From positions 1 to 23,092 of IMG/VR virus record IMGVR_UViG_3300031643_000015: DNA of 23,092 bases. One strand, 5' to 3'. The DNA is from a virus. Below are positions 3,258 to 23,092 of this stretch, piece after piece (the stretch's first letter is position 1; every line of letters begins with the position of its first letter). The position numbers and the translations under genes were made by a program. The notes beneath the pieces are model-generated. The model was given only the letters and a program-made list of their open reading frames with translations. It was not told the origin of the DNA and searched no databases.

Positions 3258-4046
3258 CTAGCCCTCCGTGCATTTGTCGCACTTCGGGAGCTCGTTCCCC
3301 TTTCCCTGTCTGTGCATCATCTGGTAGTGTTGATGTTTCTCGCTTTGCCATATCTCCTCTATTGTTTCGTTGTTCAGATTTCCAAATGTTACCTCCCCGA
3401 AGGGGTCGAAGCAGCACAAAACCACATCGCCGTTATAGCGAATGGTCATGCCGTTGATCGCTCTAGGACAAGATGTCCACCTTCGTCTTTCGTAAGGATA
3501 TTGAGTACCCGCCCATGATTGATACTGAATCACCGTTCCACCTGATTGAACAAACCCCTTCATTTCTTCTTGGCTTATTGTGGGATAAGCAACCATCGTC
3601 GCTCGGTATTTCACTCCAAGCCGTTCCATAGTCTTAAAAGCCCGTACCACTTCCCAATAATCAGTCAGCCCCATGATGCTCTCCCGTGTCCCTGGATTCA
3701 GGCCGTTTAGAGAAATGCTGTATCTTACGGCGGGGATGTCTTTTAGCTGATTTATAACCTCGTCCGTCAAGAAACTTCCGTTTGTATAGACTTCTATATC
3801 TACATTAGGCAAAGTCTCTCTCAGTTTCTTGAGTCGGGGGATAAACTTCTTATCCAGAAACGGCTCCCCAGTCAGCATGGGTATGAATTGTGTCAGGCTG
3901 GGTAATTGCTTCGCTTCATTGAGAATCTTGTCGTAGAGCTCATCGGTCATAAACCCCTTTTCCTTAAACTCGTGATGAGGGCAAAAGACACAATTAGCGT
4001 TGCAATGATTAGTCGTTTCTACCTGCATAAATAAGAGGTCTTTCAT
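3258..4046 (-). CDS. Radical SAM enzyme with C-terminal SPASM-type cysteines
   Basis: A 262-residue radical SAM protein. The family signature CxxxCxxC is at C15, C19 and C22 (NHCNANCVFCPHH) and would bind the 4Fe-4S cluster that cleaves S-adenosylmethionine. LTGEPFLD (58-65) corresponds to the usual GGEP-type motif, and VEVYTNG-like and YSISLNG strands follow in order. The C-terminal part has C193, CC at 211-212, and CDKC at 256-259, spaced as in SPASM/twitch extensions that hold auxiliary clusters. The ATG overlaps the stop of the methyltransferase-glycosyltransferase gene by four bases (ATGA), so the two are probably made together. Substrate unknown; modification of a virion protein or glycan is possible. 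The stop is TAG. Confidence 0.85.
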   Translation of the reverse strand: MKDLLFMQVETTNHCNANCVFCPHHEFKEKGFMTDELYDKILNEAKQLPSLTQFIPMLTGEPFLDKKFIPRLKKLRETLPNVDIEVYTNGSFLTDEVINQLKDIPAVRYSISLNGLNPGTRESIMGLTDYWEVVRAFKTMERLGVKYRATMVAYPTISQEEMKGFVQSGGTVIQYQSWAGTQYPYERRRWTSCPRAINGMTIRYNGDVVLCCFDPFGEVTFGNLNNETIEEIWQSEKHQHYQMMHRQGKGNELPKCDKCTEG

Positions 4047-5458
4047 TTCGTCACCGCCGGGACCTCCCCGGGCTCTTTCCAGGGATAGGGGTAAACATCA
4101 TCTATCTTCTTGCCTCTTGTCGTCAGGAAATTCAGGAAGTGCTCAGCCCCGATAAAGCCTTTCATCTTATGCCCGCATATCACCCCGGGATCAACGAATA
4201 TCTTAAATCCCGCGGCCTCTACCTTCCGGCAGAAGTAGAAATCCTCACCCACGAATGTCCCCTTGTTGTATTCAAACCAGGGAGGCTCGATTGCATCAAG
4301 AACTTGCCTATGAATTAAAAGACACCCACCCCCAACGCCATCACATTCTATTAAATCTTCCTTCTTGGAGGGTAACACCACAGCCTCGTTCTGTTTTATC
4401 TTATCGGTATGCTTGAACAGGAATTGAGCTATTGGGTCAATTATGGACTCATAGAAATGCGCATCCTTGATTGGCCCCGTTGTCTCCTGGTAGGCGTATT
4501 TATAACAGTGAGGCACGGGATTGCCGGGTGACTTGAAGTATAGCCCACTCACTACGGGAAGGTCCCAAGACATGAGTTTCCGCAACGTCTGCGGATGAAA
4601 GGTCTGGTCAGAGTCCATGAAGAATAACCAATCCTTTTCTAGTTGCCGGATTATATCGTTCCTGGCCACATCGGCTGGCCTACTAGAAACCTTTGTTAAT
4701 CTCGTGCCCGGGGGCTTGTCTAATCCTACGAATGAATAGAACCATTCGTCAGTCATCGCTCCCAGCATCGGCACACCTACATGAACGCCTTTACTTTCTC
4801 CACCTTTGACTAGATCGCCATTCGAGCGTTCTATCAAACCGGCATCCCTGGCCATTTTGGTAAAATACTCCGAGTGGTCAAAGTGCATCGGGAAGATGTC
4901 CTGTTGCTTGAAGTTAGACCGGTGATAGACAAACCCGCCATTCTTGAGGCAGCCTGCTATCTGCTTTAATAACTTAGGCAGAGCATCTTTGTGGATATGC
5001 TCAAAGAAGTCGTTAGCAATTACGATGTCGAAGTCTCGCTGCCCATTGAGATCATGGGTTATTACAATATCCAGTCCCCGGTCAGCGAATCTCTGCTTCG
5101 CAAAGGCCGACAGTTTCTCCGATATGTCGCAGTAGGTCACATTGTTGCCCGCATAGGCGAGAGCAATACATAATGACCCTATTCCTGCGCCTATCTCTAG
5201 TATCTTCTCACCATGATATGTAAGAAGCGGTTGGATGAAGCTATGATAAACAGGGGAGTCATAGTTCCACTTTATAAGCTCGTAGAGATAATGGTCAGCC
5301 TTCTTATACCATTCTGTGACCTCTTCTGCCGTCTGTGGGTTGCCTGTAACCCATTTCTCGGCGGCTTCTACTATGGTGTATTCCTGGACTCTCTTTAAGG
5401 CTTGCTTGTACGAGATACCCAAGAATCGAGCTAGTTCCCTTGTTGCTTGTTCTATCAA
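4043..5458 (-). CDS. Methyltransferase-glycosyltransferase fusion
   Basis: A 471-residue two-domain enzyme. Residues 75-180 form a class I SAM-dependent methyltransferase: motif I LEIGAGIGS (87-95), acidic end of strand beta-2 (YCD, 109-111), the DFDIVIANDFFEH segment (142-154) and LKNGGFVYHR after it. Residues 225-445 form a GT-A-type (GT2-like) glycosyltransferase: VPMLGAMTDEW opening, PADVARN, the metal-binding DSD at 282-284 (WLFFMDSDQTF), DGVGGGCLLIHR (373-384), GEDFYFCRKVEAAGF (404-418), and CGHK near residue 430. The start is TTG at 5456-5458 after GAGGAGGG; no ATG occurs in frame until residue 191. A strong GC hairpin lies just upstream. It is coupled to the radical SAM gene by ATGA. 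Phage glycosyltransferases of this kind occur in structural operons; a virion-modifying role is inferred. Confidence 0.85.
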   Translation of the reverse strand: MIEQATRELARFLGISYKQALKRVQEYTIVEAAEKWVTGNPQTAEEVTEWYKKADHYLYELIKWNYDSPVYHSFIQPLLTYHGEKILEIGAGIGSLCIALAYAGNNVTYCDISEKLSAFAKQRFADRGLDIVITHDLNGQRDFDIVIANDFFEHIHKDALPKLLKQIAGCLKNGGFVYHRSNFKQQDIFPMHFDHSEYFTKMARDAGLIERSNGDLVKGGESKGVHVGVPMLGAMTDEWFYSFVGLDKPPGTRLTKVSSRPADVARNDIIRQLEKDWLFFMDSDQTFHPQTLRKLMSWDLPVVSGLYFKSPGNPVPHCYKYAYQETTGPIKDAHFYESIIDPIAQFLFKHTDKIKQNEAVVLPSKKEDLIECDGVGGGCLLIHRQVLDAIEPPWFEYNKGTFVGEDFYFCRKVEAAGFKIFVDPGVICGHKMKGFIGAEHFLNFLTTRGKKIDDVYPYPWKEPGEVPAVTK

Positions 5459-5477
5459 TTTTCCCTCCTCTTTTTAT

Positions 5478-5532: not shown

Positions 5533-5548
5533 GGCTCCTTACGGAGCC
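5533..5548 (-). repeat. Hairpin with a GNRA loop containing a stop codon
   Basis: GGCTCC-GTAA-GGAGCC on the minus strand is a perfect 6-bp stem closed by a GTAA (GNRA-class) tetraloop. The loop holds the TAA stop (5539-5541) of the 131-residue gene. No T-run follows. It may protect the 3' end of the upstream message. Confidence 0.5.
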
Positions 5549-5934
5549 AAGTACCTCGGATTGAACCGGGCATTTACGGAATCAAACAAGTTTCCTGTCC
5601 CAGCGGCCGGCGTTATGGTGTGTCTAAGATAACGATAGCCATCCGACATTTCCTCAGCCCTTATCTCTACAGATTGAGCTGTGTCAGTAGTGGCCGATGC
5701 AATAGTCAGAGTGGCCAGATAGGACGTGGAAAACTGAGTTGAATTCGTCCCTTCAGCTATCACGCAGGTCAAGGCACCCTGCCACTGAGTAGCACCAGCT
5801 GCGTGGATTACGGCTACATAGTTATTATATTTCGCCATGTCCACAGCGGCACCATTCACCGCGGCTGCCGTCCTGTAGGTAGCAGCTACGGTAATCCCCT
5901 CAGTGAGTTTTATGTTTTCGCTTCCTTTGTGCAT
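5539..5934 (-). CDS. Small putative virion protein following the capsid gene
   Basis: A 131-residue protein with no family I can name. ATG at 5932-5934 follows CAGGAGAAAAAATA. The sequence is Ala/Thr-rich and predicted beta-rich (VAVIHAAG, WQGALTCVIAEGT, YLATLTIASATTD), with a YRYLRHTITPAAGTGNLFD segment near the C-terminus. Location directly behind the major capsid gene and composition suggest a decoration, head-fibre or other minor virion component. A terminator-like hairpin separates it from the capsid gene, so it may be made at a lower level. No enzyme motifs are seen. Confidence 0.6.
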   Translation of the reverse strand: MHKGSENIKLTEGITVAATYRTAAAVNGAAVDMAKYNNYVAVIHAAGATQWQGALTCVIAEGTNSTQFSTSYLATLTIASATTDTAQSVEIRAEEMSDGYRYLRHTITPAAGTGNLFDSVNARFNPRYLAP

Positions 5935-6004: not shown

Positions 6005-7132
6005 TTATGATGTGGTCGAAGCCAGACACACAAATGGAGACTTGGTTGTGCCCCTCTTTGGGGTAAACGCAGAGTCTATTAAGGGCTGGCCATCCACTCG
6101 CTTTACGAATCTCCAGGTCGTCTCATCGGTAGAGAATCGGTATTCGATTGACCTGTCCACCTTCAGCCCCTTGCGGTCTCCGATAAGATACTGGTCGAAG
6201 TCATAGAGTCCTATGTCTCCAACCGACCCTAGTGTTGGTACGTGCTCAGAGAAATACAAGGGTATGCCGAACAGCCCACCAGGTACACGCTGACCTGCAA
6301 TCATCGTCCAGGTGATTACAGCAGTGCCGAGGTTAATCAGTTGGGGCAGTATAGCCTTATTCGCTACCCATGCCACGCTCTTGGCGTACATATCGCCCCT
6401 GAAACGAGACATGATATTCCCCAGGTCAACAAGGGCGACCTGATTCACCACTGCCCTGAGCGGCGTTAAAAGAGCACCACCATTCATAATTCCTAGTGGT
6501 TGCCCTACTCCGTTGCCCTGCCAGAAGGATTCTTCCTCATACCATACTATGGCATCGCCAAAGAGTTTGAGTAACAGGGCCTCTAGTCCCACAGCATTAT
6601 CTTCCAAGAGTTCGTCCGAAGCATAGGTAAACCCGGTCAACTTCTTGGCAATTAGCTTTACCCTTCCGAAAGTAGGGTCAGCAGGAGTCTTGGGACCAGC
6701 TTCTTCCGTCCAGTAGGCAATCACACCGCCATATACTGAGCTGGAGTGTGAGGGATCGAAGACTACCGAGTAATTATAGGTATCCGAAGACATTGGGACT
6801 TTACGGGCGAGAGGACGAACTATGGCGTTCTCAAGAGAGTAGGTTTCTATACCGGCCGCAAATTGCTCTGGTACAAGAAACCCGCCAGCGCTGTCAGTGC
6901 CTTCCGATAAAGCCTTCTTCCGCCAATCACCGGATTCCATCCTCTGAGCGTGATGGTCGGCGACAGCCCGCAGATACTCCCCGAAGCTCTTGAACTGAGG
7001 TTTGTCCTCAATCGCTGGAGGCGCATCGGGATCCCCCGGCAGGTATTTCCTTTCAGGTTGCTTTAATTCCTCCACGACTTTAGCAGCCGCAGTGGCCGCT
7101 ATTTCAGCTATTTTTTCTTCTGTCATTTCCAT
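6005..7132 (-). CDS. Major capsid protein, HK97 fold
   Basis: A 375-residue HK97-type major capsid protein. A short charged N-terminal arm (residues 1-75, a delta/scaffold-like region) precedes the mature core, which starts around LSEGTDSAGGFLVPEQF. Characteristic pieces follow: SLENAIVRPLARKVPM (N-arm/E-loop entry), WTEEAGPKTPADPTFGRV, KKLTGFTYASDELLEDN, the ESFWQGNGVGQPLGIMN loop, an A-domain segment with VWVANKAILPQL-like sequence, and LYDFDQYLIGDRKGLKV. The prohead protease encoded just upstream probably removes the N-terminal arm. The ATG at 7130-7132 has a CGGAGGTAAAAA site that overlaps the end of the protease gene, whose TAA is only three bases upstream. A hairpin follows the gene. 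Confidence 0.93.
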   Translation of the reverse strand: MEMTEEKIAEIAATAAAKVVEELKQPERKYLPGDPDAPPAIEDKPQFKSFGEYLRAVADHHAQRMESGDWRKKALSEGTDSAGGFLVPEQFAAGIETYSLENAIVRPLARKVPMSSDTYNYSVVFDPSHSSSVYGGVIAYWTEEAGPKTPADPTFGRVKLIAKKLTGFTYASDELLEDNAVGLEALLLKLFGDAIVWYEEESFWQGNGVGQPLGIMNGGALLTPLRAVVNQVALVDLGNIMSRFRGDMYAKSVAWVANKAILPQLINLGTAVITWTMIAGQRVPGGLFGIPLYFSEHVPTLGSVGDIGLYDFDQYLIGDRKGLKVDRSIEYRFSTDETTWRFVKRVDGQPLIDSAFTPKRGTTKSPFVCLASTTS

Positions 7133-17906: not shown

Positions 17907-18251
17907 CTAGCCATTAGCTTTCTGCATCACCCTTTCAATCTCCCGCGTCCTCTTATTGCTCGTGGACAATGCGGCGGCCTCTTTTGAGCCTACCCCGAGG
18001 TCCCTCAAATGCTGATAGTTCTGCTTCTTCGTTTCCAGGTAAACATAGTATCCGGGGCGCAAGCTGCTTTTGGCTTTAGCCTTAACCGGGCCAACCTTCG
18101 CTTTCTGCCCTAGCTGCTCTGCCAGGGTCTTTTCCCGGTAGCCCTGGGGCTCTTTGTGTAAAAGACACTTCCAGTTGTTGCAGACAGAGAGATAGTGTTT
18201 ATGGAAGCTAAACTCTGTTAATGGTTGTCCGCAGCAAGAACAATTAGCCAT
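17907..18251 (-). CDS. Zinc-finger protein of unknown function
   Basis: A 114-residue protein. The N-terminus has C4-x2-C7 (NCSCCGQPLTEF) and a second set with H and C (HKHYLSVCNNWKC), probably one zinc site. A basic central part (KAKVGPVKAKAKSSLRPGYY) precedes a helix-turn-helix-like C-terminus (YQHLRDLGVGSKEAAALSTSNKRTREIE). The start overlaps the DUF5131 stop by one base (TAATG), so the two are coupled. DNA binding is a fair inference; the target is unknown. Confidence 0.6.
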   Translation of the reverse strand: MANCSCCGQPLTEFSFHKHYLSVCNNWKCLLHKEPQGYREKTLAEQLGQKAKVGPVKAKAKSSLRPGYYVYLETKKQNYQHLRDLGVGSKEAAALSTSNKRTREIERVMQKANG

Positions 18252-19273
18252 TAAACTCCATCTGTTGGCATCTCTTGTCTTAACTCCGCAATGCTTTCAT
18301 AATTAGGATGATTGCCTTGTGGTATATCTTCCCAAAACTCAGGATGCCCAGTTAATAAAGGCCATAAGTTGTCCTTCAAGAAAACCTTGACTCCCGCCTT
18401 GTCCGCAGCCTCTACTATCTCCTGGACCCATTCGATTTTAGGCTGCAAAGTAAACTTATTGCCATAAGGCATAACTGAGCCATCTTCTCGCTTATATGCC
18501 TCGGCTAACCTCAGCATTTCAATTCCTGTGCCAGTGCAAGCCCCGATGATGAGCCAGTCAATGGTGGGTTTGCCAAAGAATAGCAGCATAGGTTCTAGTA
18601 GCGGTTCAAGGCTAAGAAATTTGACCTTTGCATCTATCTGCTCAAGGTAATAGCCAGCATCATCAACCATCCTGCCATTCGTAGCCGTCACCCCCACCCA
18701 GCAGTTATCAGGAAAGGGTGAGAACCTGATTAGGTTCTGAGGTTGCTTGGTGAGAAGGTAGAAGCGGTCATACTCGTCGTTGTCCCAAATTGCATCCATA
18801 ATTCGGCTTGTCCAATCTTCCGGCACACCAATACCAAAGAGGTCGCCCATATCACATACGAAGATGCCTTTACGCTTGCTCTCTATTAGAGCACTTCTTA
18901 TTCCAGAATTGAATCGCCCCTCATAAGAAGGGACAGGCTTAATATCCTCTAGCCTTTCTTCCCAAAAGCGGGGATAGAAGGGGTCTTGTGAAGGGTGATA
19001 GCCCACAGGATAGTCAATCTCGCCAGCATTGAGTATCATCTTCGGCCAGTTATCATTCGCCAAATACCTCTGTTTCAATCTCCCATTCGCCAGCCTGTAG
19101 GCATAGCAAGGGAAGCCACCGCCTTTGCATAGTCCGTTATCGTGGTTTAGGCAGCCGGTGATGGGATTATATGTCCATCCTAATTCATAACTACTCGCCT
19201 GTGTGGGGTCTAGGTTAGGTGCCATCATTACTGGATTCCTTACCCATCCTGTTGCTGAACTTGCTCTATTCAT
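18251..19273 (-). CDS. DUF5131 family protein (phage Gp37/Gp68 type)
   Basis: A 340-residue member of DUF5131, phage proteins with a radical-SAM-like barrel plan. Seen here: LGWTYNPITGC with Cys41, then C49 and C56 (GLCKGGGFPCYAYRLA), the GIFVCDMGDLFG and DRFYLLTKQPQNL strands, NCWVGVTATNG, VKFLSLEPLLEPM, IDWLIIGACTGTG and VKVFLKDNLW. These landmarks are those of the family; the three Cys could hold a cluster, though the spacing is not CxxxCxxC. Biochemical activity is not established. I chose ATG 19271-19273, because the GGAGGT site lies inside the four extra codons of an upstream ATG. A structured leader with an anti-Shine-Dalgarno element precedes it. Confidence 0.85.
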   Translation of the reverse strand: MNRASSATGWVRNPVMMAPNLDPTQASSYELGWTYNPITGCLNHDNGLCKGGGFPCYAYRLANGRLKQRYLANDNWPKMILNAGEIDYPVGYHPSQDPFYPRFWEERLEDIKPVPSYEGRFNSGIRSALIESKRKGIFVCDMGDLFGIGVPEDWTSRIMDAIWDNDEYDRFYLLTKQPQNLIRFSPFPDNCWVGVTATNGRMVDDAGYYLEQIDAKVKFLSLEPLLEPMLLFFGKPTIDWLIIGACTGTGIEMLRLAEAYKREDGSVMPYGNKFTLQPKIEWVQEIVEAADKAGVKVFLKDNLWPLLTGHPEFWEDIPQGNHPNYESIAELRQEMPTDGV

Positions 19274-19373
19274 AATTACCTCCATAAAAGTGGTAGCAGG
19301 GGTTGGTCAGGCCCCCGCCACCTATATCAAAGAAAGGAGGTGAAAAGAAGTTGGTAGTAGTCATTTTTGTCAT
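19266..19373 (-). CDS. Possible 35-codon leader ORF before the DUF5131 gene
   Basis: ATG 19371-19373 overlaps the stop of the MBL gene (ATGA) and the frame runs 35 codons (MTKMTTTNFFSPPFFDIGGG onwards) to TAG 19266-19268, eight bases past the DUF5131 start. A second ATG three codons in has AGGA at useful spacing. Ribosomes reading it would unwind the leader hairpin and the anti-Shine-Dalgarno element. It may be a coupling or leader peptide; a folded protein is unlikely. Confidence 0.3.
   Translation of the reverse strand: MTKMTTTNFFSPPFFDIGGGGLTNPCYHFYGGNYE
19278..19343 (-). promoter_or_regulatory. Structured leader: hairpin plus anti-Shine-Dalgarno
   Basis: On the minus strand, 5' to 3': TCACCTCCTTT (19333-19343), a match to the 3' end of 16S rRNA and complementary to a Shine-Dalgarno site; an 11-bp hairpin with G-U pairs (GGTGGCGGGGG with CCCCTGCTACC, 19292-19322, nine-base loop); ACTTTTAT; and GGAGGT (19278-19283), the DUF5131 binding site. 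ACCTCC can pair with that GGAGGT and close the site, with the hairpin stacked between. A translation switch or attenuator is inferred. Confidence 0.45.
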
Positions 19374-20056
19374 CCTATATAAACCGGTTTGCCTGTTACT
19401 TCCTGCACCTTTCGCTTGAACATATCTGCGTCAGAGTTGTTATCGCTCAAATGGAGCAGGTGTATCTCCTCGACCTTGCTCAAGTCATTTGCCCGGAGCA
19501 TATCAACCAGCGTCTCCAGACTCATGTGGTCATGGAGAATTGACCGCCGTAGCTCTGATGAAGGGGTGTTATCCTTGAGCAGAGGCGAGCTGTAATTCGC
19601 CTCAATCATAAGGTGACTTAGCCCTTCAAATCTGTGGGCGAGATAAGCTGTATCAGTGGCGAAAAGAAGTTTCTCGTGGGATTGGTTAGCCATTAGAAAA
19701 CCGAGCGGCTCAGCGGCGCCGTGGTGCAACTGGAAGGGTTTTATCGCCCAACTGCCGATATGGAATTGAGTCAATGCCTCGATGATGTGTAACCTATGGC
19801 CAGATAGTTTAAGGGCTTCAGCAGTCCCGCGGCTCATGTAACAGTCTATGCCGGCTCTCATAACCTCATGCGCCGCCTTAGCGTGGTCCTGGTGTTCATG
19901 CGAGATAAGGCAGCCGACCAGCCGGGATACTTCGAAGTTTAAGCCTTGCTGAATGAGGCGAAATGGAATACCGGCCTCCAGGAGCAACGGCGTTTTGCCA
20001 TCGCTCACAAAGTAAGCGTTACCACTGCTCCCGGAAGCCAGAACCTTTATCTCCAT
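19370..20056 (-). CDS. Metallo-beta-lactamase-fold hydrolase, RecT-associated
   Basis: A 228-residue MBL-fold protein of the YycJ/WalJ-like group. The metal site is clear: H53-x-H55-x-D57-H58 (LISHEHQDHAKA), His at 111-112 (FQLHHGAAEP), D135 (LLFATDTAY) and H202 (HLLHLSDNNSD). The start is LASGSSGNAYFVSDG, typical of the subfamily. Members act as hydrolases or 5'-exonucleases on nucleic acid. MBL proteins next to RecT in phages have been suggested to be the exonuclease that makes the single strand RecT binds. The ATG lies one base after the recT stop. No separate RecE, YqaJ or lambda-type exonuclease is visible here. Confidence 0.85.
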   Translation of the reverse strand: MEIKVLASGSSGNAYFVSDGKTPLLLEAGIPFRLIQQGLNFEVSRLVGCLISHEHQDHAKAAHEVMRAGIDCYMSRGTAEALKLSGHRLHIIEALTQFHIGSWAIKPFQLHHGAAEPLGFLMANQSHEKLLFATDTAYLAHRFEGLSHLMIEANYSSPLLKDNTPSSELRRSILHDHMSLETLVDMLRANDLSKVEEIHLLHLSDNNSDADMFKRKVQEVTGKPVYIG

Positions 20057-20057
20057 C

Positions 20058-21164
20058 TTAAAACTCTGGCTTCTCCTCGGCCGCCTTCTTGGGCCCTACC
20101 CTGACTGCCGCTATCAGTGCGTAGCACTCCGCCGGGCTTTTCGTTATCTCTGCCTGGGTAGAAACCCCGAGCTCGGCCAGAACTTGCTTTGGTTGCAAAC
20201 CGAAGTCCTCAAAACACGCCTTCGTCATAGCTGCTACAGTTTTGAGGCTTGCAGGATCACGCTTTGGTGGCTCCGTGTTCTCTGTCCCTGCTGGCTCCCC
20301 GACAATCTCCCCTGTCTCGGGATCCACGTCAATAATGTCCTTGTTGGCGTTCTCCGAAATCTCATCTTCAATCTCACCCTCAGCTGCTTCATCATCGGCA
20401 GCCTCTACTGCCAGATAGCTTTCGTTCACCTTACGGGGGTCAACTTGCAATTTCTCAGTAACACGAAGCACCAAGGTTTTATACCTCATTTCCACTGGAT
20501 TCTTTGTCCAGAAGTCTTGAGTCTTTGCCATCGCCTTTGACTTCTGAAAATCCGTTTCCGTTACGATGACCAACTGGTTTTTGTGGCTATCGGCATATAC
20601 GATATACCCGAATCCACCAACAATATCCCCGCGGTCAAACGGCTGCGTCACCTCAAACTCATAGCTCTCGACACTATTTTTCAGAGTTCGCTTGATAGGT
20701 ATGAACCTGTCTGCACTATAGACAAGCTCATAGATGATGTCTTGCGGCTCATTTACTGCCATCCTGCGCCGGTATAAGTCCTTGCCCGCATACCCTATTC
20801 TCAGGTCAAGGTCATACTTGCCTTCCTTGCTATTCCAGTAAGGGATAGGGTGGATATGATTGGCGATAAGGGCATCTAAGCCGAGGTCTATTCTGTGAAC
20901 GGCGTCAATGGCTAATTTATTCAAATTGATATTGTTCCAGACTATTGGCTGCCGTTCACTACTGCGCTTTGCCTCTAAATCCTTCAATGTGGCATCAATC
21001 TTAATGAAAAGATGCTGGGCCAAATGCCTCTGATATGGCGTCATCTCAAGGGAATCGCTTATCGTTGAATCGAACTCCCTGACGACCAGGCTGGTGAACT
21101 TTTCCCCCGGTGTTGGTTCCCGCTTAGCTACTGTCGTGTCCTTTTTCTCCTCTGATTTTCCCAT
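20058..21164 (-). CDS. recT: RecT family single-strand annealing recombinase
   Basis: A 368-residue RecT protein. The core (about 80-255) carries family landmarks: LDALIANHIHPIPYW, LDLRIGYAGKDLYRRRMA, VGGFGYIVYADSHKNQLV, and KSKAMAKTQDFWTKNPVEMR followed by TLVLRVTEKLQVDPRKVN. It anneals complementary single strands during phage recombination and repair. The C-terminal 100 residues are an acidic linker (EAADDEAAEGEIEDEISENA), the DVDPETGEIVG motif and a small helical end domain (CFEDFGLQPKQVLAELGV) perhaps for partner binding. ATG 21162-21164 follows AAGGAGGAATCAGATA. It lies between the Rad50-like gene and the MBL gene. Confidence 0.93.
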   Translation of the reverse strand: MGKSEEKKDTTVAKREPTPGEKFTSLVVREFDSTISDSLEMTPYQRHLAQHLFIKIDATLKDLEAKRSSERQPIVWNNINLNKLAIDAVHRIDLGLDALIANHIHPIPYWNSKEGKYDLDLRIGYAGKDLYRRRMAVNEPQDIIYELVYSADRFIPIKRTLKNSVESYEFEVTQPFDRGDIVGGFGYIVYADSHKNQLVIVTETDFQKSKAMAKTQDFWTKNPVEMRYKTLVLRVTEKLQVDPRKVNESYLAVEAADDEAAEGEIEDEISENANKDIIDVDPETGEIVGEPAGTENTEPPKRDPASLKTVAAMTKACFEDFGLQPKQVLAELGVSTQAEITKSPAECYALIAAVRVGPKKAAEEKPEF

Positions 21165-21181
21165 TATCTGATTCCTCCTTT

Positions 21182-23092
21182 TTATATCGCTATAGCTTCT
21201 TTTGCTGCTTCAATTCTAAGCACCTTGTCAGCCTCACTCACATATAGCCTGATCTGCTGCCCCTTTGTCTGTAGTAACTGCGTAACAGCCTCAGCGTTAT
21301 CTACCCATATCGGAGCGTCAAACTGGAAGTGCTCGCTCAAGGTGTTAATAATGTCGAGCCCGATGTTTATTCGCGCCGAGTTATTAAGTGCTGAGCTATA
21401 CGGCACCCCGAGGTATATCGTCTCGCATACTTCCTCTACCCCGCCGTTCACTAGCTGGTCGAACAGCTTAAACCTTGCCAGCTCAAAGCGACTATTTATC
21501 CTGTCCTCAAGCAGACTGACCTTTGTTCTAACAAACTGCTCAGTGAGGTATAATTCCCCTTCCAGCCTCTCAAACTCTTTAGCCAGTGTTCTTTCCTCAG
21601 CCTTCAATTCCTCAATGCGCTGTAGGCCGGCCTCGCGCTGTTTAATCTGAGCTATTGCTGATTCGCAATCCGCTATCTTTGTGTCAATGGCAGAGAGAAT
21701 CAATCTCATGGCCTCGACTGCCCCGCTATTAGTAGCCTTGAGCTTTTCGATATCCAGCTCTATGTCGCTTTTCTTTTGGGTTAATTCAGCATAAGCGGGA
21801 TTGGCCGGCGGTTCTGTTTCTTTATTCTCCAAGGCAGCGAGAGCAGCCCTGGCGCCGTCAAACTCTTTGTTTAATTCAGTAAGCCGTGCTTCATCTTTCG
21901 TATTGTCCAGTTCAAGGTTAGCGACCTCTTTGTTTAATGCCTTGACCTTTGCCTTAATTGACTGCCCTTCATCGGTAATTGACGCTAGCTTATTTGCCTT
22001 GTTTTGGTTAAAGGCAGCCGTGGCCAACTCCCTAGCTGCCTCTACATATTCCGGCGGTAAGGATTGTCCACACGCCGGGCAAGTATCGGATTGCTCAAAG
22101 GTAAAGGTTTCAGAGTTGGCCACAGTCCAGTCCTGGCGGAGGGCATTGAGTTTAACTTCAAACTGTCCTATAAGCCCTTGGCACTCTTCTATCTGGTCTT
22201 TCCGTATTGCCGCATCAGTATCAATGCTTGCCCGTTCAATCGCCAGCTTGCTTAATCCTAGCCTTGCTGCTTGCGTTTCATCGGCTGCCGCCCCCCGCTG
22301 TTCATTCTCTAGCTGAAGTATCTCGGCCTCAATCACCCTTAGCTCTTTTGTCAGCTCTGCAACTCCGCCGCCGGCCTCAAGGTTCGCAAGTTCCCGGGCT
22401 TTCACATTGCGGTTTCCTTTCAAATCCTCAAGCTCTGTTTTAAGACCAGGAGCATTGATAGCATCGGGTAAACTGCGCTGAACCTCACTAATGCGCACAG
22501 GTATCTTCTCTATCTCTTTGTTGATTTCTGAACGCCTGGCTGCTATGACCTTGCGATGGTCCTCGAGCTTATGGCCATTTAGAATCTCAGGTAGTTTTGC
22601 CAGCTTAGAATCACTGGCTATTACCTCAGCATCGCTCAGGTCGCCGCATACTTCTAAGAGTAGCTTCCTGCGGTCCTGCCAGTGTAGAACCTCATTGAAG
22701 TGGCGAGGATTGGTGAGCAGCTTAAAAGCATCTTCATCTATGACTTCGGCGATCCTGGCTTCATACTCATTCTTCTTAGTAGGCACACCGTCCAGGAAGT
22801 AGTTTGTCGTGTGTCCTGTAAATTCCCGGTCGACGGAGCCTCGCTTCTTGGTCCAGTTCTCGGAGTAGACTTTCTTTAGAAGCAGAGGCCGCCCGGAGAT
22901 ATCCAGGTGGGCCTCAACCTCATGCTCTAAGCCGTGTATCGGCTCTCCGTCTACTCCAAGTGTTTTGATTTCAAAGTCCTTCCGGTTGGCTGAGTCTTTA
23001 TCAAACAATAGCCACGAAAAGGCATCGAACAGAGTTGTTTTGCCTACCGCATTCTCCCCATATATGCTCGTGTCTCGACCTGCGATATCAAG
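21182..23092 (-). CDS. Rad50/SbcC-like ATPase, 5' end missing
   Basis: The frame is open through the right window edge, so the N-terminus is missing; 636 codons are visible. Within the first 30 is a Walker A (YGENAVGKTTLFDAFSW), then a beta-rich ATPase lobe (VDREFTGHTTNYFLDG), a long coiled coil, and a zinc-hook Cys pair (DTCPACGQSLPPEY) at the coil apex. The second coil arm and a C-terminal lobe follow, with INIGLDIINTLSEHF and a divergent Walker B region APIWVDNAEAVT. It is shorter than SbcC but has the same plan. Rad50-type proteins tether and open DNA ends with a nuclease; no SbcD/Mre11 gene is next to it, but an MBL protein is. A TTG-initiated start at 23008 would lose Walker A and is wrong. 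Confidence 0.88.
   Translation of the reverse strand, partial: LDIAGRDTSIYGENAVGKTTLFDAFSWLLFDKDSANRKDFEIKTLGVDGEPIHGLEHEVEAHLDISGRPLLLKKVYSENWTKKRGSVDREFTGHTTNYFLDGVPTKKNEYEARIAEVIDEDAFKLLTNPRHFNEVLHWQDRRKLLLEVCGDLSDAEVIASDSKLAKLPEILNGHKLEDHRKVIAARRSEINKEIEKIPVRISEVQRSLPDAINAPGLKTELEDLKGNRNVKARELANLEAGGGVAELTKELRVIEAEILQLENEQRGAAADETQAARLGLSKLAIERASIDTDAAIRKDQIEECQGLIGQFEVKLNALRQDWTVANSETFTFEQSDTCPACGQSLPPEYVEAARELATAAFNQNKANKLASITDEGQSIKAKVKALNKEVANLELDNTKDEARLTELNKEFDGARAALAALENKETEPPANPAYAELTQKKSDIELDIEKLKATNSGAVEAMRLILSAIDTKIADCESAIAQIKQREAGLQRIEELKAEERTLAKEFERLEGELYLTEQFVRTKVSLLEDRINSRFELARFKLFDQLVNGGVEEVCETIYLGVPYSSALNNSARINIGLDIINTLSEHFQFDAPIWVDNAEAVTQLLQTKGQQIRLYVSEADKVLRIEAAKEAIAI

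Follow-up and report, generated by a model that had tools for sequence, protein, structure and literature searches.

We found that the window, the whole 23,092-base virus record analysed here, carries within its head operon a gene for a methyltransferase fused to a GT-A glycosyltransferase, followed directly by a gene for a radical SAM enzyme. We consider it somewhat likelier than its alternatives taken together that these genes form a virion-glycosylation cassette, which would be expressed with the late head genes and would equip a protein of the head or tail with a sugar that is methylated and radically oxidised. Directly observed are three domains with intact motifs, the conserved linkage of the two genes and the position of both within the head operon. 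A sequence-only reading of the same DNA had proposed that a virion protein is modified in several steps, and this remains the best account of a conserved cassette with intact motifs in a structural operon.

Location of the two genes in the head operon

All structural genes of the window are on the minus strand. Along this strand we observed TerS/TerL, the portal protein (with a Mu F domain), a protease, an HK97-type capsid protein, a 131-aa protein (p131), the methyltransferase-glycosyltransferase (MT-GT) fusion and the radical SAM enzyme, followed by a head protein of the phrog_240/Gp80 type, a 153-aa protein and a tail fibre. The genes downstream of the cassette, among them those of the phrog_240 head protein and the tail fibre, also include a phrog_644 match. 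The features that matter here are as follows.

6005–7132, minus strand: HK97-type major capsid protein with a Ser/Thr-rich C-terminus (PF05065, 2.4e-41)
5539–5934, minus strand: p131, the 131-aa protein between the capsid protein and the fusion (PHROG match, phrog_5707)
5463–5470, minus strand: ribosome-binding-site-like GAGGAGGG ahead of the fusion's TTG start codon (read from the sequence)
4043–5458, minus strand: MT-GT fusion gene, 471 aa, TTG start (open reading frame, Pfam, alignment)
4805–5458, minus strand: class I SAM-dependent methyltransferase domain, residues about 1–218 (Pfam, fold, motif I)
4115–4801, minus strand: GT-A glycosyltransferase domain, residues about 220–448 (fold match and motifs)
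3258–4046, minus strand: BtrN-like twitch radical SAM gene, 262 aa (Pfam, sequence and fold match)
3261–3479, minus strand: twitch domain, residues about 190–262 (PF13186, 9.7e-15; Cys pattern)

The TTG start of the fusion sits 4 bases past GAGGAGGG; at its other end, the stop codon of the fusion and the start codon of the radical SAM gene overlap as ATGA. Both open reading frames and their overlap, between the capsid-region and the tail-type genes, are thus present as the sequence-only reading had described them. A position within the structural gene region is a mark of viral glycosyltransferases that glycosylate virions, and the fusion gene has it. Searches of the window for tRNA genes and Rfam families gave no matches.

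Domains of the fusion protein

That a single protein combines a class I methyltransferase with a GT-A enzyme had been claimed from the letters of the sequence, and Pfam, fold and motifs all bear this out. The Pfam model Methyltransf_12 matched residues 87–176 (6.9e-15), with motif I, LEIGAGIG, at residue 87. The AlphaFold2 model of the fusion (mean pLDDT 83) has the Rossmann fold that goes with this glycine-rich motif in class I SAM methyltransferases, and its methyltransferase half matches enzymes of the ChlM/UbiG type with Z about 17.

For the other half, the GT2 Pfam match was below threshold (PF00535, 4.8e-4, residues 264–296), yet the GT-A domain is clear from fold comparison, with the GT-like domain of LH3 at Z 16.4 and STIV A197 at Z 15.6. 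The DxD motif (D282, D284), the GED motif at 404–406 (E405, D406) and the terminal His (H430) are invariant among the aligned relatives with the same domain order. We see that the fold, the DxD motif and a catalytic acidic residue, which together define GT-A enzymes, are all in place.

In annotated phages, the fusion found only partial glycosyltransferase matches (23–27%). A genome scan with the fusion produced no relative of the whole protein; its only matches were methyltransferases that stand alone, from 4 of the 294 Dehalococcoidia genomes. We also considered a defence role for the two enzymes and rejected it, as the PADLOC matches (pVip, 6e-10; mad2, 4e-15) are partial and reflect generic radical SAM and methyltransferase folds.

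Conservation of the gene pair

The MT-GT fusion was found in 13 IMG/VR contigs, the window included, two of which (L010 and L011) end inside the fusion gene. Co-occurrence in relatives, the check that the sequence-only reading had named, is observed: the radical SAM gene comes next after the fusion in 8 of the 11 readable contigs (the window, L003, L004, L005, L007, L008, L017 and L031; in L004 a single gene intervenes), while three relatives (L009, L018 and L019) have the fusion without an adjacent radical SAM gene. Because of these three contigs, and because the presence of the radical SAM gene changes at least two times on the tree of the fusion, the radical SAM step is optional.

Both genes appear in the same order in independent contigs, in relatives that are 47–77% identical. 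Synonymous sites are saturated, so that no dN/dS figure can be computed, whereas nonsynonymous differences amount to 0.13–0.23 per site. An order that is kept at such divergence argues that the pairing is not due to chance. We also looked for scattering of the two genes and for loss of catalytic residues in homologs, either of which would have spoken against a joint system, and found neither; active-site motifs were kept.

In nine contigs (the window, L004, L005, L007, L008, L010, L017, L019 and L031), the fusion is located past the capsid gene and p131, sometimes with one gene between. In L009, on the other hand, it adjoins the major tail protein and not the capsid. Additional genes at the locus fit sugar chemistry: an HldE-type nucleotidyltransferase-like gene stands between the pair in L004 (PHROG 2.2e-10, with Pfam at only 0.035), and an extra GT-B gene precedes the fusion in L007 (7.9e-25).

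Separately, the fusion of L011 (5170–6741) has an additional methyltransferase-like stretch, some 200 aa long, between its methyltransferase and glycosyltransferase parts. Either a true insertion or a chimera made in assembly could account for it.

Other arrangements of the same functions and the likely host

The same functions meet at head genes in other arrangements as well. In contigs L020–L026 the domain order is reversed (GT-MT), and in three of them (L021, L025 and L026) the GT-MT gene lies past a protease and a capsid-type gene of 464–469 aa unlike that of the window. In L032 and L033, a relative of the radical SAM enzyme (35–36%) directly precedes a glycosyltransferase fused to a methyltransferase of another family, Methyltransf_24, with a P22-type coat gene upstream in L033 and a head-closure gene downstream in L032. 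There are also partial sets: L077 has a glycosyltransferase alone, at tail genes, and L034 has a radical SAM relative with neither a glycosyltransferase nor a methyltransferase neighbour. In our view, the repeated meeting of these functions at head genes is the strongest argument for a joint modification of the particle.

The closest cellular relatives of the radical SAM enzyme (39–42%) were found in Dehalococcoidia and other Chloroflexota, with strong relatives in 9 of 294 sampled Dehalococcoidia genomes. The host is likely to be a member of Dehalococcoidia (uncultured Chloroflexota). The radical SAM tree neither supports nor refutes an origin of the phage gene from the host. A search of 50,697 annotated phage records with the radical SAM protein (tblastn, E 1e-5) gave no match.

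In Dehalococcoidia the relative belongs to a conserved chromosomal operon, observed in L035–L042 (L037: 6254–8822), which encodes a glucoamylase-like protein, with weak similarity to oligosaccharide amylase, a Methyltransf_24 protein and this BtrN-like twitch enzyme. A 1.5-Mb Dehalococcoidia genome has a prophage-like region (L065: 3191–4357) with a TerL 68% identical to that of the window; its head region is otherwise divergent. A contig of another Dehalococcoidia genome has the portal-protease-capsid-p131 order at 24–41% identity, with the cassette absent.

The radical SAM enzyme and its probable substrate

The 262-aa protein matched the Pfam models Radical_SAM (PF04055, 3.1e-22) and SPASM (PF13186, 9.7e-15). 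The sequence-only reading had noted a CxxxCxxC motif and SPASM-like cysteines. The first part stands: CX3CX2C (C15-C19-C22) is present in all alignment rows and places the protein in the radical SAM superfamily. The second part needs correcting. By the published definitions, SPASM has a seven-Cys motif with two auxiliary clusters (PMC6231123, also for twitch); the second-cluster motif of a full SPASM, CX2CX5CX3C, is absent in every alignment row. The auxiliary-cluster cysteines follow the BtrN-type twitch pattern, CX9-15GX4C plus CX2C, as C193-x12-G-x4-C211 and C256-x2-C259, with C212 conserved too. With no CX5CX3C and only four auxiliary cysteines, the C-terminal domain is, by its cysteine pattern, a one-cluster twitch domain and not a full SPASM.

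The earlier suggestion to predict the structure of this region was followed (pLDDT 84). BtrN is the nearest solved enzyme both by sequence (E 9e-20, the next 5e-6) and by fold (Z 22.5, the next being SuiB at 19.8). These values speak for kinship to the BtrN family only, with two-electron oxidation of a hydroxyl of a sugar or an aminocyclitol, the reaction that defines this family, as the predicted one; in this subfamily, function does not track sequence clusters (PMC6231123).

In the main alternative, the target of the radical SAM enzyme is a side chain or the backbone of a virion protein, altered in the manner of an anSME or a RiPP maturase, either independently of the glycosyltransferase or by making its attachment site. 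Many SPASM/twitch enzymes do act on peptides, the radical SAM gene adjoins those of small virion proteins, the peptide-acting SuiB, SkfB and anSME also match the fold at Z 18–20, and peptide-maturase models match the protein, below their own cut-offs. Still, the model leaves no room for a fused RRE, which together with a precursor peptide gene marks RiPP radical SAM maturases, as its core strand begins at residue 6 of 262, the domain is a twitch and not a full SPASM, and BtrN is clearly the top match by sequence. Moreover, the neighbours that recur, both in other lineages and in the likely host, are enzymes of the methyl, glycosyl and glycoside types. We therefore regard a peptide target as unlikely, and with it the radical-modified peptide of the sequence-only reading.

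A sugar-modifying cassette could work as follows. The GT-A half would attach a sugar to one of the virion proteins, with the capsid protein or p131 as the most likely acceptor, and the fused methyltransferase would O-methylate the transferred sugar. The BtrN-like enzyme would abstract a hydrogen from a sugar carbon, with the four-Cys auxiliary cluster as the likely electron acceptor, so that the sugar would be oxidised (less likely epimerised) before or after the transfer. A more specific version, in which the late radical SAM dehydrogenase of the virus oxidises a methylated sugar on its own capsid and the glycan is tailored by radical chemistry, we offer tentatively, at a little less than an even chance.

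The probable target

Genes for glycosyltransferases and methyltransferases are common among lysogenic conversion genes, and in cells, relatives of both the radical SAM enzyme and the methyltransferase domain occur near genes of the surface-polysaccharide type. The cassette could thus act on the host instead of the virion and alter a surface glycan or the S-layer in the course of infection or lysogeny, for receptor masking or superinfection exclusion. However, conversion genes usually sit at prophage ends, while these genes are translationally coupled within a late head operon, and a membrane segment was noticed in neither protein. Since such genes recur past the capsid gene in several unrelated head modules, a virion target is likelier, and we give the host surface, also named in the sequence-only reading, a lower probability than a peptide target.

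The least probable alternative makes the two genes separate passengers, with the fusion glycosylating the virion and the radical SAM enzyme doing an unrelated metabolic job; the unpaired fusions of L009, L018 and L019, the lone glycosyltransferase at the tail genes of L077 and the unaccompanied radical SAM relative of L034 would agree with it, but the adjacency in 8 of 11 contigs, the overlapping ATGA junction and the independent second pairing of this radical SAM family with a GT-MT fusion (L032/L033) make it improbable.

For a cassette that glycosylates the virion, the capsid protein and p131 are, judged by gene position, the best candidate acceptors; p131 lies between the capsid and the fusion in nearly all relatives. 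The Ser/Thr-rich C-terminal tail of the capsid protein, present in 9 of 9 phages with the fusion, was striking at first as a mark of the acceptor, but 23 of 55 capsids (related sequences) from phages with no fusion share it, and the association is weak. An alignment of p131 revealed no clear fusion-specific Ser/Thr site. Because the capsid tail is weakly tied to the fusion, and because the fusion of L009 is at the major tail protein, the acceptor may differ between phages.

Comparison with known systems

We know of no radical SAM step reported in mycobacteriophage virion glycosylation. The mycobacteriophage glycosyltransferases of Che8 (gp110), Corndog (gp38) and Myrna glycosylate capsid and tail-tube proteins, according to PMC12363180, which cites Freeman 2023 for this. 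Like them, the fusion is phage-encoded, and it is a candidate virion glycosyltransferase. For A197 of Sulfolobus turreted icosahedral virus (STIV), an essential protein, glycosylation of the major capsid protein has been proposed (PMC10551542). The fusion shares its viral GT-A fold (Z 15.6 over 167 residues, 22% identity); A197, however, is a lone glycosyltransferase of an archaeal virus, while here, in a tailed phage, the domain shares one protein with a methyltransferase, and its gene is coupled to that of a radical SAM enzyme.

BtrN is the 2-deoxy-scyllo-inosamine dehydrogenase of the butirosin pathway (4M7S/4M7T), a twitch radical SAM enzyme that oxidises an aminocyclitol. The phage enzyme resembles it in size, in the one-cluster four-Cys twitch domain (PMC6231123, PMC9012708) and in having no fused RRE. 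It differs in sequence (22% identity over the structural alignment) and in setting, a phage late operon with glycosyltransferase and methyltransferase neighbours as opposed to an antibiotic cluster.

Virus glycosyltransferases that act on virions are thus already known or proposed, and the combination of a methyltransferase fusion with a twitch radical SAM enzyme appears to be new; no such locus appeared in the literature searched, which took in few of the subscription journals. Phage virion glycosylation has so far been a matter of a few isolates and of sugar transfer. If the proposed function is true, a cassette that adds methylation and probable oxidation has been assembled anew, from enzymes of different families, in head modules unrelated to each other, which would suggest that particle glycans are under real selection in environmental phages. 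The cassette would then also allow radical sugar chemistry to be studied in a small system with defined genes.

Other genes of the window

A 344-aa phrog_2045 protein is encoded at 18251–19285 on the minus strand; it is weakly similar to the 'radical SAM mobile pair protein A' (9e-15) and is a PADLOC PDC-M41B candidate (2.5e-25). The span 19370–23092, also on the minus strand, looks like a recombination module, with a metallo-beta-lactamase-like protein, a RecT-like annealing protein (phrog_148, 2e-10) and a long ATPase with a P-loop-like start that continues past the contig end.
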